A stretch of 64,000 bases of DNA from NCBI RefSeq assembly GCF_900103285.1, contig NZ_FNGS01000010.1, positions 124,001 through 188,000 on the forward strand, read 5' to 3'. Within the stretch, counting starts at the first letter, position 1. Each line of letters starts with the position of its first letter. This DNA is from Siphonobacter aquaeclarae (GTDB taxonomy: Bacteria > Bacteroidota > Bacteroidia > Cytophagales > Spirosomataceae). The position numbers and the translations under genes were made by a program. A model generated the notes under the pieces. That model had not been told where the DNA came from and ran no database searches. It was given only the letters and a program-made list of their open reading frames with translations. Shown here in pieces: positions 730 to 41,551 of this stretch.

Positions 730-3700
730 TTAGAATTTGAGGTTGATACCAGCCATCAGGGTTTTCACGACGGGATAGGTTGTCGCGTCGACTTCCGGAT
801 CCCAGCCTTTGGGGAAGCGGTTGAGCGTAAAGAGGTCATTTCCGGCCACGTATACGCGCAATCCCTGCATGCTCAGCCGCTTCGCGACAGCCTGTGGCAG
901 GTTGTAGCCGATGGTCAGGTTTTTCATCCGGAAATAGGCGCCGTTGATGAGCCAGAAGTCCGACATCTGGTAGTTGTTTCCGGCGGAAATCTGGGAAAGG
1001 CGCGGATAGCGCACCAGCAGGTTGCGCTCGGCGGTATTGGAGGTACTCCAGTAGTTGCCGTCGATCTCCGCCGGGGCATTGCCGAAGCTTTCACCAAAAG
1101 GCATGACCTGTGTATCGGCCAGGCGGCGGTTGATCTTACCGACTCCCTGGAAGACCAGCCCGAGGTCAAATCCCTTGTATTCCAGCCGGATATTACCACC
1201 GAATACGTAGCGGGGCAGGGAGCCGCCGAGGAGTACCTTGTCGCCCTCAGGCGTAATCTTGCCGTCGCCGTTGAGGTCGAGGTATTTGATATCGCCGGGC
1301 TTGACGTTGGCATTCAGCACGGGAGCGTTTTTGACTTCTTCCGCCGTCTGGAATAATCCGGAGCTGCGGTACCCGAACCACTCGTCAAACTCGCCGCCTT
1401 CGAGCTTGGCGTTATCGCCGCGTAATTGTGTTCCCTTCAGGCTGACGATGGTCGTCCGGGTATCCGACAGGTTGACGCCGATGGAATAGTTCAGCTTCCC
1501 GACGTGGTCTTTCCAGCCGGCCTCGAGTTCCCATCCTTTGGCTTCGACGACGCCGGCGTTCTGGCTGGGGTTTTCGTAGCCGAGGTACTTCGGAATATCA
1601 AGACTCAGGAGAATATCACGGGTACGCTTGCGGAAGTAGTCGGCGGTCAGGCTCAGGCGCTGGTGGAAGAAACTGAGGTCGAGGCCGGCGTCGATCGACT
1701 CCGTCGTTTCCCACGTAATATCTTTCACGGCATAGGTTACCTGTGCGCCGGCCGATTGCGCCGTCAGCTGATTCCCCTGGTAAAACAGAGCGTTATTATT
1801 GAATTCGATGGATGCCTGATAGGGATAATCGCCAATGCGTTCATTCCCGATCTGCCCCCATGAACCGCGGACTTTCAGGTACGAAATCGCGGGAAGGGAT
1901 TTGAGAAAAGGTTCTTCGGAAATCGTCCATCCCGCTGATACCGATGGAAATACGCCCCACCGGTAGTCTCTGTAAAAGCGGGAGGAGCCGTCGAGCCGGA
2001 CATTGGCCTGGAGGTAGTACTTGTTTTTGTAATTGTACTTCACCCGGCTGAAGCCCGAGCGCAGTGCCGACTCCGTCGCCGACCCGCTGTTGGCCCGCAG
2101 AGTCAGGGAACCGAGGTTCAGGTACGGGAAGTCGGTGATGGTGAAACCCTCCCGCGAGGCTCCGAGCGACTCACTGAATGCATAGTTTTCTTCGTACCCA
2201 AGCAAGGCGTCAAACTGGTGATGTTCCCGGAAGAGTTTGGAATAGTTGGCGAGCAGCTGCCCGTTGAACGTCATCATCTCTGTCCGGCCTTCGTTCAGAA
2301 TGGTATTTGCCTGGTTTTTGTAGATGACCTGCGCGGGATTGTTCAGTGCCGTATACTGGATGACTTTCGCAAAGTTCTTGCTCTTGTTGAAATCGAGGGT
2401 GGGGGAGATAATCGCCGTCAGCGAAAGTCCTTCCACCGGCCGGACGTCAAACACCAGCCGACCGCCCAGCTGGTTGTACGTTCCGCGGTTTGTACCGCCG
2501 TCGTGAATCTGGGCCAGGGGGTTGCGGCCTTCCTTGCCAGGCGCCCAGCGTCCGTCTTCGTACCGGTCGTCGTAAATGCCCGGGAATATCCGGCTGGCAT
2601 ACACGGGATTTTCGCCGGCAGGGCTTACTTCCGCCGTCCGTTTGTAGAAGATATCGAAGTTGGCCGATACCATCTTGTTGATACGCATGTCATTATTGAC
2701 CCGAACGGTGTAGCGGTCATACTGGCGGTTGACGTACAGCCCGTCTACTTTGGAATAGCTCAGGGAGGCCTTTGTTTTCAGCTTGCCGGTCCCGATGGCA
2801 AACGACAGGTCGTGGCGGTGGCGCGGCGCCGTCCGTCCGATGATGAGGCGCTGCCAGTCGGTAGCAGGGTATTTATCCGGCTCCGCTTTATGACGGGCGT
2901 CGAAATTGTCGATGAGATCTTTGGCGTACAGACCGGTACCGCCGTCGTTGACCTGCATTTCATTGAACATCGACATATACCGGGGAACATTGACATAAGA
3001 CGGCAGTTGCGTGGGCGACTGCATCCCGAACTCATAATTATAGTCGAAGCTGGCCTGCCCGTCCTTCGCCCGCTTGGTTGTGACGAGGATTACTCCCGCC
3101 GCCGCCCGCGAGCCATAGATGGAGGCAGACGCCCCGTCTTTCAGTACAGTGATGTTTTCGATATCGTTGGGGTTGAGGTTGTTGATATTGCCGTTGGGTA
3201 CGCCGTCGACGATCACCAGCGGATCGTTGTTCCCGATCGTCGTAATACCCCGGATACGAATGGTAGAGGTAGCGCCCGGCGCTCCGGAATTACGGGTGAC
3301 GGTCACCCCCGCCAGCGCGCCCTGCAGCGCTTCCGATACCTGCATGGTCTGGCGCTCGGCGATATTCTTACCGCTCAGCGATGCGACAGAGCCTGTGAGG
3401 TCTTTTTTCTGCTCGGAGCCATAGCCGACAACCACGACTTCGTCGAGCGACTTCGTATCCGGCCTGAGCGTGATGTCCAGATTGGTTGTCTGCGTGCCAA
3501 AGGGAAGCTCCTGGGTAATGTATCCGACCGACGAAACAACCAGCAGGCCTTTCTCCTCGGTTGCATTGAGGGCGAAGCGGCCGTCGTTGTTGGTGACCGT
3601 CCCGGTTGCTGTTCCCTTTACCCGGACGGAGGCGCCTGGAACGCCCGCTCCAACTTCATCGGTCACCCGGCCGGTCAGTAATGCCTGGATATCAGGGACT

Positions 3701-4270: not shown

Positions 4271-5287
4271 TCAGGGGATGTCGCAGGGCTTTCCGGTAAA
4301 CACGATGCGGTCTTTCTGTACTTCGAAACGGGCATCGGTCACCGAGCAGATCCAGGTAAGCTTGTCCATCAGCGGCTCATCGCCCAGCGCTGCCGTGACC
4401 GAGCAATGCGCGATGTGGCCGGCGTCATAGACGATGTTCACGCCGTACGCCTTCGAAAGCGTGGCCAGTACTTCCGGCAGAGGCGTAGCGGTAAACGTGA
4501 ACGTGAGCCGCTCGATGGAACGAACGGGTTGGAAAGAGGCTTGTGGCAGGGAAAAGCGGAGGCTGGACGCATCCAGGGAGATTTCCTGGTTGGGAGACAG
4601 GACCGGCCCCTGAAGACCGGCGGTCGAAACCGAAACCCGCCCGGTCTTGACCCGGACCAGCAGGCGGCGGTCGCCGGCATAGGCACGAACCCGGAAACTG
4701 GTTCCCACCACCCGCGTAATCAGCTTTCCGGCATACACCAGGAAGGGATGCAGGGAGTCTTTCCGTACTTCGAAAAAACCTTCTCCCGAAAGAAAAACTT
4801 CCCTCTTTTCTCCTGAAAAAGAGGAGGGATACCGGAGTTCGCTGCCCGGTTGAAGCACAACAGAACTTCCGTCAGGCAGGGCGACGTGGCGGACCGACCG
4901 CCCCGAGGCAAAACGTTCTTCCCGCGGTGTTTCGGCGACGGGGTGGCTCTCCGGCGCCGGACGAAAGACGAGAAACGCGCCGATCAACACGGCAACCGAT
5001 GCTGCAACAGCCCAGGGCCAGTACCTCGGCTTCCGGACAACGGGGCGGGATTCCCGCAGGACCTGGCGGATGCGGGTATCGACCTGTTCGTCGGAAAGCG
5101 GGTACTCGTTCCCGCGGATGGCGAGCAGCATGCGCCGGGCACGGCCGAGTTGTTCCTGCCGCAGCGGGTCTTCGCCTGCCCAGTTCTGCCAGTAGGCGTT
5201 GTCCTGCGGTGCTTCTCCGTAAACCCAGGCCCGGAACCGGTCATTCTCCAGAAGGTGGTGTAATTCTGATTGCATAAGCGACAGCAT
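4271..5287 (-). CDS. FecR-family anti-sigma factor
   Basis: This is a membrane-spanning anti-sigma factor of about 338 residues. A cytoplasmic N-terminal part (about 1-85) should hold the ECF sigma factor. A single transmembrane segment follows (WPWAVAASVAVLIGAFLVF, about 89-107), then a periplasmic FecR domain (about 125-225) with the recognisable DGSSVVLQPGSELRYP stretch. The C-terminal DUF4974/STN-like part (about 265-335) contains TPLPEVLATLSKAYGVNIVY. It lies between the sigma gene and susC, the standard trans-envelope signalling order. A second ATG at 5275 (MQSELHH) is an equally good start. Confidence 0.9.
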   Translation of the reverse strand: MLSLMQSELHHLLENDRFRAWVYGEAPQDNAYWQNWAGEDPLRQEQLGRARRMLLAIRGNEYPLSDEQVDTRIRQVLRESRPVVRKPRYWPWAVAASVAVLIGAFLVFRPAPESHPVAETPREERFASGRSVRHVALPDGSSVVLQPGSELRYPSSFSGEKREVFLSGEGFFEVRKDSLHPFLVYAGKLITRVVGTSFRVRAYAGDRRLLVRVKTGRVSVSTAGLQGPVLSPNQEISLDASSLRFSLPQASFQPVRSIERLTFTFTATPLPEVLATLSKAYGVNIVYDAGHIAHCSVTAALGDEPLMDKLTWICSVTDARFEVQKDRIVFTGKPCDIP

Positions 5288-37034: not shown

Positions 37035-38723
37035 CTACAGGTCGAGCTTGTAATTGGTTTGTTGGGTCAGATGGTGAGACAACATTTCCCGGGCGTTGTC
37101 AATAATCGACGGGGCCGGCTTGGCGCCGCCGATCATCTGCGCGATTTCCAGGACGCGCTCTTCGGTCGAGAGCTGACGTATCCGGGAAACGGTCCGGTCC
37201 GCGGAGTGATCCTTGTAGACGAAGTAATGGGCATCGCCCTTGGCTGCAATCTGGTGCAGGTGAGTAATGGCTATCAGCTGGTGACCACGGGCCATATCGC
37301 GCATCATGTTGCCGACCTTGATGGCGATTTCCCCCGAAATACCCGTATCAATTTCGTCGAATACAATCGTCGGAAGCGAGCGTTTGTTGGCAAGAATGTA
37401 CTTCACCGCCAGCATGAGGCGGCTGAATTCCCCGCCGGAGGCCACTTCCCGCAATTGGCGGGGCTGGATGCCCTTGTTGGCGGAAAAGAGAAAATTGACG
37501 GTATCAACACCCTGCAAGGTCGGTTTTCCGGTATGATAGTCCACCACGAGGCGCCCGTTTGGGATGCCCAGGTCAGACAACAGGCCGGTCACCAGGTCCT
37601 GAATCTCGCCCAGTACCACTTTACGGGATTCAGAAAGTTTGATACCTGACTGCTGAAGCGTCTCCCAGGCCTGTTTCGCGTCCTTTTCCGCCTGCGCGAG
37701 GTCATCGTCGATGTTAAGTACCTTCGCTACTTTCAGTTCCAGATCAGCCTGTATGGCCAGCAGTTCCGGTACAGAAGCCACATTGTGTTTTTTCTCCAGG
37801 TGGTACAGCAGACTGAGCCGCTCCTGAATACGGGCGATTTTTTCGTCGTCGAGCTCTACCCGGTCGTTTTCCGACTCCAGTTCAGCGGTGATGTCTTTCA
37901 GCTCGATCAGGCAACTCTGCACACGGTCGCGCAGTGCTGCAAAGGCATCGCCAAACTGGCTGATACTGTTGAGATTACTGTTGACGCTTTGGAGCCAGTT
38001 GAGAATACTCTGCTCGGGATCGTTGAGATAGCCAACGGCGGCGTTGATCCGCTGCTTGATTTCCTCGGCGTTTTCAAGCGTAGATAGGTCCCGCTCGAGC
38101 TCCTGCTGTTCGTCGGGCTGAAAACGGGCTTTGTCCAGCTCATCGAGCAGGAACGAATGATAGTCAAATTCTTTCCGGATTTCCCGTGCTTCGGTCTGAA
38201 GACGGTCGTAGGCTTCCTGCTTTTTACGAAAATCCCGGAAATGGTCCTTGTAGTTCTCCAGCAGCGCGTTGTTCTGGGCATAGGTATCGACGAGCTGAAG
38301 CTGGTATTCCTGTGACCCGAGCAGGATGGAGTCGTGCTGGGAATGCACGTCCATCAGTTCCGAGCCGATTTTCCGCAGGGTATCGAGGTTAACGGGCGTA
38401 TCGTTGATAAATGCCCGCGTCTTACCCGAAGGACTGATTTCCCGGCGGATAATGCACGTCGTATCGTAATCGATTTCTTCTTCCCCGAAAAGCGCCTGGA
38501 TGTAGTAGCCTGAAATATCGAAATGGCCTTCGATGATGCATTTCTTCTCCGGATCCCAGAGCACTTTGGTATCGGCCCGGTTGCCGCGCAACAGCCCGAT
38601 GGCTCCGAGAAGGATGGACTTTCCGGCTCCGGTTTCACCGGTAATGATATTCAGGCCACGGCTGGGCGAGAGTTCAAGAGACTCGATCAGTGCGTAGTTC
38701 TGGACAAGCAGTGTCGACAGCAT
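37035..38723 (-). CDS. recN: DNA repair protein RecN
   Basis: A 562-residue SMC-like ATPase for double-strand break repair. Walker A GETGAGKS is at 29-36. A long coiled-coil middle follows (about 150-370), then the C-terminal ABC signature region (LREVASGGEFSRLMLAVKYI) and Walker B with TIVFDEIDTGISG. It is full length. Recurrent gene order coaBC-DUF4835-recN is kept here, apart from two inserted small genes. Confidence 0.96.
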   Translation of the reverse strand: MLSTLLVQNYALIESLELSPSRGLNIITGETGAGKSILLGAIGLLRGNRADTKVLWDPEKKCIIEGHFDISGYYIQALFGEEEIDYDTTCIIRREISPSGKTRAFINDTPVNLDTLRKIGSELMDVHSQHDSILLGSQEYQLQLVDTYAQNNALLENYKDHFRDFRKKQEAYDRLQTEAREIRKEFDYHSFLLDELDKARFQPDEQQELERDLSTLENAEEIKQRINAAVGYLNDPEQSILNWLQSVNSNLNSISQFGDAFAALRDRVQSCLIELKDITAELESENDRVELDDEKIARIQERLSLLYHLEKKHNVASVPELLAIQADLELKVAKVLNIDDDLAQAEKDAKQAWETLQQSGIKLSESRKVVLGEIQDLVTGLLSDLGIPNGRLVVDYHTGKPTLQGVDTVNFLFSANKGIQPRQLREVASGGEFSRLMLAVKYILANKRSLPTIVFDEIDTGISGEIAIKVGNMMRDMARGHQLIAITHLHQIAAKGDAHYFVYKDHSADRTVSRIRQLSTEERVLEIAQMIGGAKPAPSIIDNAREMLSHHLTQQTNYKLDL

Positions 38724-38745: not shown

Positions 38746-38781
38746 CAAAGGTACAAAGGTATGACTCCCTTTCGGTCAAAA
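38746..38781 (-). promoter_or_regulatory. Tandem -7 boxes upstream of recN
   Basis: On the minus strand TACCTTTG occurs twice back to back (38754-38761 and 38746-38753), both exact TAnnTTTG, with TTTTG upstream at 38777-38781 (spacings 15 and 23 bp, neither ideal). This suggests that recN is also transcribed from its own promoter inside the array, just before and overlapping the small Sm-like gene's end. Confidence 0.5.
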
Positions 38782-38997
38782 GGAACTGCCTTTGTCACAG
38801 ATAATTTCCCCGATCAGAGCGAGTGGGTGGCGGCGCTTCCGGTGAAGACCGTCCTCGAGAATAAGCTCCTGCCGGTCGGCCGAGACAAAGGTCCCCTGGT
38901 ACGTCGCGCCGGATGCCAGTACAATACTGACCGGCATTCCGGTAAGGCTTTGGAGGTCGCCCGTTGCCGGGTCGATCCGGATGAGTCGTTTACCCAT
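38776..38997 (-). CDS. Small protein with Sm/LSm-like sequence pattern
   Basis: A 73-residue protein. After an N-terminal stretch (MGKRLIRIDPATGDLQSL), the part GMPVSIVLASGATYQGTF is followed by VSADRQELILEDG. It matches the Sm1 pattern V-x-V-x-L-x2-G-x4-G-T-x4-D-x3-L-x-L-E-D. A final strand LALIGEIICDKG takes the place of Sm2. It has many positive residues between strands 3 and 4 (LHRKRRH). The fold assignment is by eye only. It starts 8 bp inside the end of the GNAT gene (translational coupling) and lies upstream of recN. Confidence 0.7.
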   Translation of the reverse strand: MGKRLIRIDPATGDLQSLTGMPVSIVLASGATYQGTFVSADRQELILEDGLHRKRRHPLALIGEIICDKGSSF

Positions 38998-39427
38998 GGT
39001 ATGTCATCACGAAATGGTTTTCAATTTCGGCCGAACAGACCAGTCCGTGCCGTTCGTAGAAGCGCCGCGCCGGCTCGTTGACCTGCAACACGGTCAGTTT
39101 CAGAGGAATACCACGGCTATGTGCTTCAGTTTTCAACGATTCCAGCAGTTGCGAGCCAATGCCGAGGTTCTGGAAAAGCGGCAGCAGGTACAGTTCTGAC
39201 AAAAAGATTTCATCCTTTTTGCGCTCTACGCGAAGGAGGCCTGCTGGCTCGTTGGCCCAGCAGATCACCTGGCTGTCGAGCTCCCGGAATGTTTCCGTAA
39301 AAAAGGTATGCTGGATTTTTTCGTACCACGCTCCCCACGTCATCACGACATACTCGCCGAGTGCCTGCTTCTTGACCTGATAGGCCCATTCCAAATCAGT
39401 AGCAGTGGCCGGGCGGAGCGAAATCAT
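38990..39427 (-). CDS. GNAT-family N-acetyltransferase
   Basis: A 145-residue acyltransferase starting MISLRPATATDLEWAYQVKK. The acetyl-CoA loop is LPLFQNLGIGSQLLESLK (Q-x-x-G-I-G type, about 88-105), with the usual NEPARRFYERHGL before the C-terminal strand. The acceptor is unknown. It lies 7 bp after the DUF4835 gene and overlaps the Sm-like gene. It looks like an extra gene within the coaBC-recN array. Confidence 0.9.
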   Translation of the reverse strand: MISLRPATATDLEWAYQVKKQALGEYVVMTWGAWYEKIQHTFFTETFRELDSQVICWANEPAGLLRVERKKDEIFLSELYLLPLFQNLGIGSQLLESLKTEAHSRGIPLKLTVLQVNEPARRFYERHGLVCSAEIENHFVMTYHG

Positions 39428-39434
39428 AGCATTG

Positions 39435-40346
39435 CTAGCGGACAAGCCTCCGGTACAGGTCGGCCTTGGTCGGGTCGAGCTGGGAAAGAAGCTGGTATGC
39501 CTGGCTCTTGTCGGCCGGCATGCCTTTGGAGAAAATCTGGTATAGCTCTTCCGACTTGGCATCGAAAAAACTATTGAGCAATAATGTAGCAGGCTTCTGC
39601 TGGTTGACACCGCGCAGGTCGTTCAGGACGGCCAGTATCTGCTTCCGGGACTGATCCGGCTGATCCAGCATGGTATCCAGCGCGAGGCGGTGATAGGTAT
39701 ACAGCCCTTCGCGGAACGGAACCATCTGCTGGTTCTGAAGATCATCGATGAGCCAGTACCGGCTGCGCTGATCCGCACGCGAATCCCAGCCTGCCGATCC
39801 GCCGGAGGACGCCAGATTGGCTACGTTATACGCCCGCTGAATCCAGACGTCGCCTCCCCGGCGACCGAAGGAATCATAGTCGAGCGCCAGCGCCAGATAG
39901 CTGTAGTAGGCGAGGAGCGACGTCAGGTTATTCGTAAACGTGTTTTCGTTGAAATTCAACGGGTTATTGGGCTGATACTGGAAGGAAAACGAGCGGTCGA
40001 CAAACTTCAGCAATACCGTTTCATAGTTCGTACCGAAGACAGGCCGGTTGATCTGAATCATGGCCTGCCCGTCGTAATTGCCGTCGGCTGTAGCTTTCTG
40101 AAGGTTAATGGAGATATCCAGACGGATTTTTTCCTCCTGCCGGAACTGGTCGTTGGTCCACCGCCGGCCGTTGACAAAATCGGCCATTGCCCGTTGCAGT
40201 TCCGAATAGATCTGCTGGGCGTTGTTGCTTTGCTGGTTAACCTTGATCTGATCGGTGCGCAGGCTGATCGTGCAGTTCAGTTCCTGCGCCAGCGCCGCCG
40301 CACCGGGTATCAGCGTCAGGATCAGAAGGAAGAAGAATCGTTTCAT
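39435..40346 (-). CDS. DUF4835 family exported protein (PorD-type)
   Basis: A 303-residue protein with a signal peptide (about 1-20, ending AALAQ). The mature start ELNCTISLRTDQIK and the IYSELQRAMADFVNGRRWTND stretch are typical of DUF4835. Members of the family are annotated as type IX secretion protein PorD in some databases, which fits the other T9SS genes in this window. I cannot confirm the role from sequence. Its ATG overlaps the coaBC stop (ATGA), so the two are translationally coupled. Confidence 0.85.
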   Translation of the reverse strand: MKRFFFLLILTLIPGAAALAQELNCTISLRTDQIKVNQQSNNAQQIYSELQRAMADFVNGRRWTNDQFRQEEKIRLDISINLQKATADGNYDGQAMIQINRPVFGTNYETVLLKFVDRSFSFQYQPNNPLNFNENTFTNNLTSLLAYYSYLALALDYDSFGRRGGDVWIQRAYNVANLASSGGSAGWDSRADQRSRYWLIDDLQNQQMVPFREGLYTYHRLALDTMLDQPDQSRKQILAVLNDLRGVNQQKPATLLLNSFFDAKSEELYQIFSKGMPADKSQAYQLLSQLDPTKADLYRRLVR

Positions 40347-41551
40347 TTGGGTGGAAAAGCGAGCCGGCTGATGGCCTGAAGGATATCGGCGGCTGCTTCT
40401 TTTTTGGATTTTAAAGGAAAATCGGCGTGACCATCCGGGCCAATGATCGTGATCTTGTTCGTATCGTATCCGAAGCCGGCCCCGGCATCGTTGAGTGAAT
40501 TGAGGACGATCAGGTCGAGGTTTTTCCGGAGCCGCTTCTGGATGGCGTTGTCGAGTTCGTCGTTGGTTTCAAGGGCGAAGCCGACCAGCCACTGGCCAGG
40601 CTTCTTCCGCTGTCCGAGAGTCGCTGCAATATCAACGGTTTTGGTCAATTCAATATTGAAGACGTCTTCCTTCTTCTTGATTTTCTGCGTTGCGACCACC
40701 AGCGGAGTATAGTCGGCAACGGCGGCGGCGAGGATAACAACCTCCTGTTCATCGAAAAGACGGTCACAGGCCTCAAACATCTCCTTCGCAGAGCGGACAT
40801 CCAGCCGCCGGACAGACGGATGCGGTACGGACAGGGCCGTCGGGCCACTCACCAGGGTAACCACGGCGCCTGCGCGGGCCAGCTCAGCCGCAAGCGCATA
40901 GCCCATTTTCCCCGTTGAATGATTGGAAATAAAACGGACAGGATCGATGGCCTCCTGCGTCGGTCCGGCCGTAAGCAGGACTTTTTTTCCGGCCCAGTCC
41001 GACGACTGGCTGAAATACGCCCCGATCTGGGCTACCAGCTCTTCGGGTTCTGCCATGCGGCCTTCTCCCACGAGCCCCGACGCCAGTTCTCCAAAACCGG
41101 GCTGAATAAACCGGTTGCCATAGCTTTCCAGCTTGCGGATATTTTCCCGCGTGCTGCCGTGCTTGTACATATCCAGGTCCATCGCCGGCGCCCAGAATAC
41201 CGGGCAGCGGGCTGAAAGATACACGGCTGTCAGGAAGTCGTCGCAAATCCCGTTGGCCGCTTTGGCCAGGGTATGTGCCGTGGCGGGGGCGATCACGATA
41301 ATATCGGCCCAGAGCGCTGTATCGACATGGTTCGTCCATGTTCCGGAGGCTGCGTCTGATACAAACTCGCCGGCTACCGGTCGTTTCGATAAGGTTCCGA
41401 GCGTCAGCGGCGTGATAAATTCCCGGGCGGCGGCGGTCATGACCACCTGTACCTCCGCACCGGCTTTTACAAGCAGCCGGATCAGCAAAGCTGTTTTGTA
41501 GGCGGCAATGCTGCCGGTGACGCCAACGATGATTCGTTTTCCCTGTAGCAT
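40343..41551 (-). CDS. coaBC: Bifunctional phosphopantothenoylcysteine decarboxylase / phosphopantothenate-cysteine ligase
   Basis: A 402-residue fusion making 4'-phosphopantetheine for coenzyme A. The N-terminal flavoprotein CoaC part (about 1-180) has VTGSIAAYK, the catalytic His in NHVDTALWAD, APATAHTLAK and PAMDLDMYKH. The C-terminal CoaB part begins KKVLLTAGPTQEAIDPVRFI, with NHSTGKMGYALA. The frame upstream of 41551 overlaps the terminator and rpoZ and is excluded. Confidence 0.95.
   Translation of the reverse strand: MLQGKRIIVGVTGSIAAYKTALLIRLLVKAGAEVQVVMTAAAREFITPLTLGTLSKRPVAGEFVSDAASGTWTNHVDTALWADIIVIAPATAHTLAKAANGICDDFLTAVYLSARCPVFWAPAMDLDMYKHGSTRENIRKLESYGNRFIQPGFGELASGLVGEGRMAEPEELVAQIGAYFSQSSDWAGKKVLLTAGPTQEAIDPVRFISNHSTGKMGYALAAELARAGAVVTLVSGPTALSVPHPSVRRLDVRSAKEMFEACDRLFDEQEVVILAAAVADYTPLVVATQKIKKKEDVFNIELTKTVDIAATLGQRKKPGQWLVGFALETNDELDNAIQKRLRKNLDLIVLNSLNDAGAGFGYDTNKITIIGPDGHADFPLKSKKEAAADILQAISRLAFPPK

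Follow-up and report, generated by a model that had tools for sequence, protein, structure and literature searches.

The open reading frame (ORF) under study lies at positions 38776-38997 on the minus strand of the window, i.e. the whole stretch of 64,000 nucleotides that was analysed. It starts with ATG and encodes a protein of 73 aa, MGKRLIRIDPATGDLQSLTGMPVSIVLASGATYQGTFVSADRQELILEDGLHRKRRHPLALIGEIICDKGSSF, which in the original prediction was a candidate Sm/LSm-fold protein whose gene overlaps a GNAT gene within a coaBC-DUF4835-recN array. Both aspects of this context were confirmed, as the overlap amounts to 8 nt at the GNAT end and the genes follow each other in the order coaBC-DUF4835-GNAT-Sm-recN:

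40343-41551, minus strand: coaBC, start set at MLQGKRIIVG inside a longer ORF, named from its sequence and by the original prediction
39435-40346, minus strand: gene for a DUF4835 protein (PF16119, E 1.5e-94), the conserved upstream neighbour
38990-39427, minus strand: GNAT acetyltransferase gene, with the 8-nt overlap with the Sm gene
38776-38997, minus strand: Sm-fold coding sequence, 73 aa, stop included, backed by orthologues and purifying selection
37035-38723, minus strand: recN, the conserved downstream neighbour

The protein had been described as ending in LIGEIICDKG; its true C-terminus, CDKGSSF, lies three residues further on. Among the loci examined, a GNAT gene at the DUF4835/Sm junction occurs in the window's genus only.

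Computation shows the ORF to be a real conserved gene. Five orthologues from the same genus, 45-51% identical to the window protein over the full length and from end to end, make it more than a chance reading frame, and the pN/pS values between same-genus pairs (0.11-0.53, with the minimum of 0.11 for the closest pair) demonstrate purifying selection. A single-query search matched 16 of 150 Spirosomataceae genomes, and a 30-row profile detected a full-length orthologue with colinear ends in 55 of the 150, a hand count of full-length rows (the automatic tally of 62 takes in weak matches in long cytochrome ORFs). With the profile, about 83 of 291 genomes from the order matched at E<1e-7 (hand count) and 80 of 296 from the phylum at E<=1e-5, where E-values are per genome and the genome sets are drawn samples. 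Full-length members were also present in Chlorobiaceae and further deep-branching lineages within Bacteroidota/Chlorobiota. A restriction of the orthologues to one species, which would have counted against the original prediction, is therefore not observed. The loci named in the genome scan include Larkinella (Spirosomataceae, Cytophagales), the MAG KatS3mg041 and 50 loci from Chlorobium, Chlorobiaceae and other Chlorobiota, while the class and phylum samples held no full-length member from most other Bacteroidia families, which describes the sampling and does not prove absence. Family members mostly measure 72-81 aa and begin with M-[GS]-K-R, and the full-length matches are free of internal stops. 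Five Larkinella members (L106-L110, positions 5001-5243; 80 aa) have an N-terminal linker about 5 residues longer before the barrel. A divergent member from another deep family (L060, positions 3028-3255, starting MPSKQIRI) sits just upstream of a hisE-like gene and near rimP-like and nusA-like genes. A phage or plasmid origin was rejected, there being no plasmid match and no relative in viral contigs.

The gene has two conserved neighbourhoods: in Cytophagales the order is DUF4835-Sm-recN, and Chlorobiota have greA-Sm-tpiA. In the 12 Spirosomataceae loci examined, recN always follows the Sm gene directly and DUF4835 is upstream in nearly all, one locus carrying a 3-kb insertion; across the order scan, recN and/or DUF4835 adjoin the Sm gene in 22 of 23 loci (L083-L105). 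Of the 50 Chlorobiota loci (L113-L162), 46 have greA upstream, mostly 27-250 nt away and sometimes at a distance of about 1 kb or more. In 48 of them, tpiA comes immediately after the Sm gene, with 2-30 nt in between. Adjacency to greA recurs in the deeper families f16, f29 and f50 (L059, L061-L064, L068 and L069); in L061, the gene after the Sm gene looks phosphofructokinase-like by eye. Neighbours thus vary by lineage, and recN, DUF4835 and tpiA give no pointer to RNA. Ten relatives without the Sm gene were compared at the same site. In four of them (L193, L195, L198 and L199) DUF4835 and recN are adjacent, and the gaps of 78-145 bp contain no Sm-like ORF, which speaks for clean absence rather than divergence. 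In the remaining six, it is the gene surroundings that have changed. These clean empty sites indicate that the gene is dispensable in some lineages.

When the family profile was compared with the PDB, the best matches were the archaeal SmAP3 (1m5q, E 3.6e-5) and the eukaryotic SmD3 (0.002) and SmB (0.012), followed by LSm and Hfq proteins lower down. Pairwise alignment with hhalign gave 92% probability for Sm D3/B (score 35.4), 67% for a mixed Hfq alignment (27.5) and 36% for cyanobacterial Hfq alone (23.1; 45 columns without a gap), the E. coli and Synechocystis Hfq sequences having been confirmed against the PDB. None of these scores was reached in 200 column-shuffles each, for which the maxima were 17.6, 14.8 and 17.6, respectively. 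The Sm1 motif, with its hydrophobic alternation, G-x4-G and terminal acidic residue, is present, G35 being invariant; the spacing proposed earlier holds overall, except that the second V is actually I25 (V23-x-I25-x-L27-x2-G30-x4-G35-T36-x4-D41-x3-L45-x-L47-E-D49). The window protein remains under the cut-off of the Pfam LSM model PF01423 (16.5 versus 23.4 bits), and the same model gives weak matches to 8 of 15 family members, with E 3e-4 at best. Two groups of ORFs with weak profile matches were rejected as orthologues and left out of the counts: ORFs of 155-190 aa, which are RimP (three read), and Spirosomataceae ORFs of about 970 aa, which are PVC-type cytochromes with a TIGR02603 domain (one read). 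The latter, heme-binding CxxCH proteins (TIGR02604/TIGR02603; L183, positions 27-2234, and others), contain a stretch weakly matching the Sm profile, which suggests that the TIGR02603 cytochrome domain may hold a similar small barrel. Matches to NCBIfam MM0924 and to a Leptospira small domain were discarded as far under the cut-off, and for MM0924 the open-access literature offered no usable paper.

Structures were predicted with AlphaFold2 for the window protein (pLDDT 84.1, pTM 0.65) and for a Chlorobium ferrooxidans member only 26% identical to it (pLDDT 88.9, pTM 0.72), the two models being built on a mostly shared alignment and hence not fully independent. Both consist of a short N-terminal helix followed by a barrel of five strongly bent beta strands, with an additional strand at the N-terminus. 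In the window, the predicted elements and the conserved hairpin are encoded as follows:

38974-38991, minus strand: extra N-terminal strand, residues 3-8 (KRLIRI), within the M-[GS]-K-R motif (AlphaFold2; family frequency of K3 0.86, of R4 0.89)
38917-38934, minus strand: Sm strand beta1, residues 22-27 (AlphaFold2)
38878-38904, minus strand: Sm strand beta2, residues 32-40, with the invariant G35 (AlphaFold2 and conservation)
38854-38868, minus strand: Sm strand beta3, residues 44-48 (AlphaFold2)
38833-38856, minus strand: beta3-beta4 hairpin, residues 48-55, E-D-G-L-H-R-K-R in the window (conservation)
38824-38838, minus strand: Sm strand beta4, residues 54-58, KRRHP (AlphaFold2)
38788-38814, minus strand: long Sm strand beta5, residues 62-70, with the conserved acidic D68 (AlphaFold2; D/E 0.96)

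A Foldseek search of the PDB with the window model returned RimP first and then 49 Hfq chains among the best 50, with Synechocystis Hfq (3hfo) superposing at an rmsd of 0.8 A over 55 columns. The Chlorobium model gave a more mixed picture, comprising RimP, spliceosomal Sm and archaeal Hfq proteins at 0.8-1.3 A and further YgdR, MscS, Tudor and designed barrels. All Foldseek E-values exceeded 0.001, the domain being small, and in a viral structure library only unnamed small barrels matched. The Sm/LSm fold put forward in the original prediction is upheld by the Sm-dominated profile matches together with the five-strand Sm-type barrels modelled as monomers for two distant members. Since RimP, the TIGR02603 cytochrome domain, which has no role in RNA biology, and YgdR, MscS and Tudor barrels match as well, the fold does not fix the function, and the safe statement is that of a predicted small barrel of Sm topology with Sm and Hfq proteins as its nearest relatives by sequence.

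Hfq and Sm proteins grip RNA through the pore loops L3 and L5. In the present family, both loops (residues 41-43 and 59-61) are among the variable positions. The Hfq residues Y55-K56-H57, which line the proximal RNA pore, align with P58-L59-A60 of the window protein, and no conserved K-H is seen there in the family; the canonical Sm residues (I-R-G of Sm2 and D-x-M-N of L3) are likewise absent, positions 41-43 and 58-61 being variable. The comparison of aligned sequences thus shows computationally a family devoid of a recognisable Hfq or Sm RNA-pore motif, and on this basis the RNA binding and the small-RNA role raised in the original prediction are not supported so far. The conserved polar positions are instead K3, R4, (R7), R/K48, D49, R51, H55 and D/E68, and the N-terminal strand may pair with beta5 (K3/R4 with D68). 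Within the hairpin, the family consensus reads R/K-D-x-R-x-[HRK]-[RK]-H (D49 0.95, R51 0.75, H55 0.86), some conserved residues being swapped in the window's genus (E48, L51 and R55). Taking fold, family and non-canonical site together, we consider it quite probable that these proteins constitute a distinct, uncurated single-domain Sm/LSm-fold family of the Bacteroidota/Chlorobiota group and act through a surface other than the RNA pore.

Hfq itself was not recognised by PF17209 above the cut-off in the window genome, in any of 61 family genomes or in any of the 148 genomes from the phylum. The model did score in all five positive controls, namely E. coli, B. subtilis, C. vibrioides, T. maritima and M. 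jannaschii. The earlier statement that Bacteroidota generally have no recognisable Hfq therefore stands, in agreement with what has been described for Bacteroides and Porphyromonas; Bacteroides and relatives are said to be devoid of ProQ and CsrA as well (PMC12119571). On the PF17209 result and the missing Y-K-H motif, an identity of the Sm-fold protein with Hfq itself was rejected. In the open-access literature, no Sm-like protein in Chlorobium and no Sm fold in Bacteroidetes was found, and an earlier description elsewhere is possible.

Several explanations may be considered for these observations. A spurious ORF or a decaying gene might be suspected from the short length and from the many relatives lacking it, but this is refuted by colinear-ended orthologues across a wide phylogenetic span, purifying selection, full-length matches free of internal stops and the conserved gene context, and its probability is practically nil. 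A stand-alone protein that is related to the C-terminal barrel of RimP and aids ribosome assembly would fit the first place of RimP in both Foldseek searches, the weak matches of the family profile to RimP C-domains and the weak PF17384 and NF011231 matches in some members, and the RimP C-terminal domain (PF17384) is likewise a small Sm/SH3-like barrel. RimP, however, is a two-domain protein encoded separately in the genomes of this group, where full rimP genes coexist with the Sm gene; the window protein has no Pfam match to RimP_N, for which 73 aa leave no room, and the PDB profile matches are to Sm and Hfq rather than to RimP, which makes this origin improbable. It is also distinctly unlikely that the protein is the group's functional Hfq, a hexameric or heptameric ring pairing sRNAs with mRNAs and missed through a profile score under the cut-off. 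The shared fold, the absence of a detectable Hfq although controls score, the near-invariant basic N-terminus, the basic and histidine-containing hairpin and the adjacency to greA would all agree with such a role, but the position of Y55-K56-H57 is taken by P58-L59-A60, where the family conserves no K-H, and the Hfq model fails to recognise the protein. Moreover, cyanobacterial Hfq, which has similar losses and is the nearest analogue of known structure, is reported to have very low RNA affinity and not to function as an RNA binder (PMC10989914). Canonical Hfq and the present protein share a run of near-identical Sm1 residues (VPVSIYLVNG in Hfq, MPVSIVLASG here), and the C-terminal tail of Hfq is lacking here. 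Relative to the Sm/LSm proteins (PF01423; SmAP3, SmD3 and SmB), with which the short N-terminal helix and five strands are shared, the D-x-M-N and R-G residues of the RNA site are missing as well.

By analogy with cyanobacterial Hfq, whose docking partner is the type IV pilus ATPase PilB1 and which has no RNA-chaperone role (PMC4390875, PMC10989914), the protein could form a ring that acts as a protein adaptor without any RNA chaperoning. Synechocystis Hfq (Ssr3341) is close to the window protein not only in the superposition given above but also in 36% identity over the 45 gap-free columns, and both proteins have L-A where Hfq has K-H. On the other hand, the family differs in its extra M-[GS]-K-R strand (absent from the two cyanobacterial Hfq sequences compared), its conserved R-D-x-R...H hairpin, its longer beta5 and the lack of a known PilB1 link, and no conserved partner gene was found, the contexts differing between recN/DUF4835 and greA/tpiA; this possibility is accordingly doubtful, with a fair amount still in its favour. 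The reading that we prefer is that of a small adaptor docking onto a partner. By analogy with Sm and Hfq proteins, the protein would assemble into a ring, and binding would rely on the conserved basic strand at the N-terminus and on the beta3-beta4 hairpin instead of the canonical pore site. The partner would most likely belong to the gene-expression machinery (RNA, the ribosome or RNA polymerase), the main alternative being a protein-only partner as for cyanobacterial Hfq. The conserved basic face and the pairing with greA are the reasons for this leaning, and a role of the adaptor in gene expression is suggested only tentatively. A more specific version, in which an RNA-binding Sm ring with a non-canonical surface (the basic N-terminal strand and the R-D-x-R...H hairpin) would stand in for Hfq, be coupled through greA to transcription elongation in Chlorobiota and have been cleanly lost in many lineages, seems unlikely.

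The action of small RNAs in Bacteroides and relatives is largely an open question, and the Sm-fold family described here, which spans Bacteroidota/Chlorobiota (about 60 sampled Chlorobiaceae; common in Cytophagales), has so far no curated family entry. Since closely related genomes differ in whether this site carries the gene, they lend themselves to natural comparisons. If RNA binding holds true, the family would represent a new type of RNA chaperone; if the proteins do not bind RNA, they would provide the second case, after cyanobacterial Hfq, of an Sm barrel put to another use.
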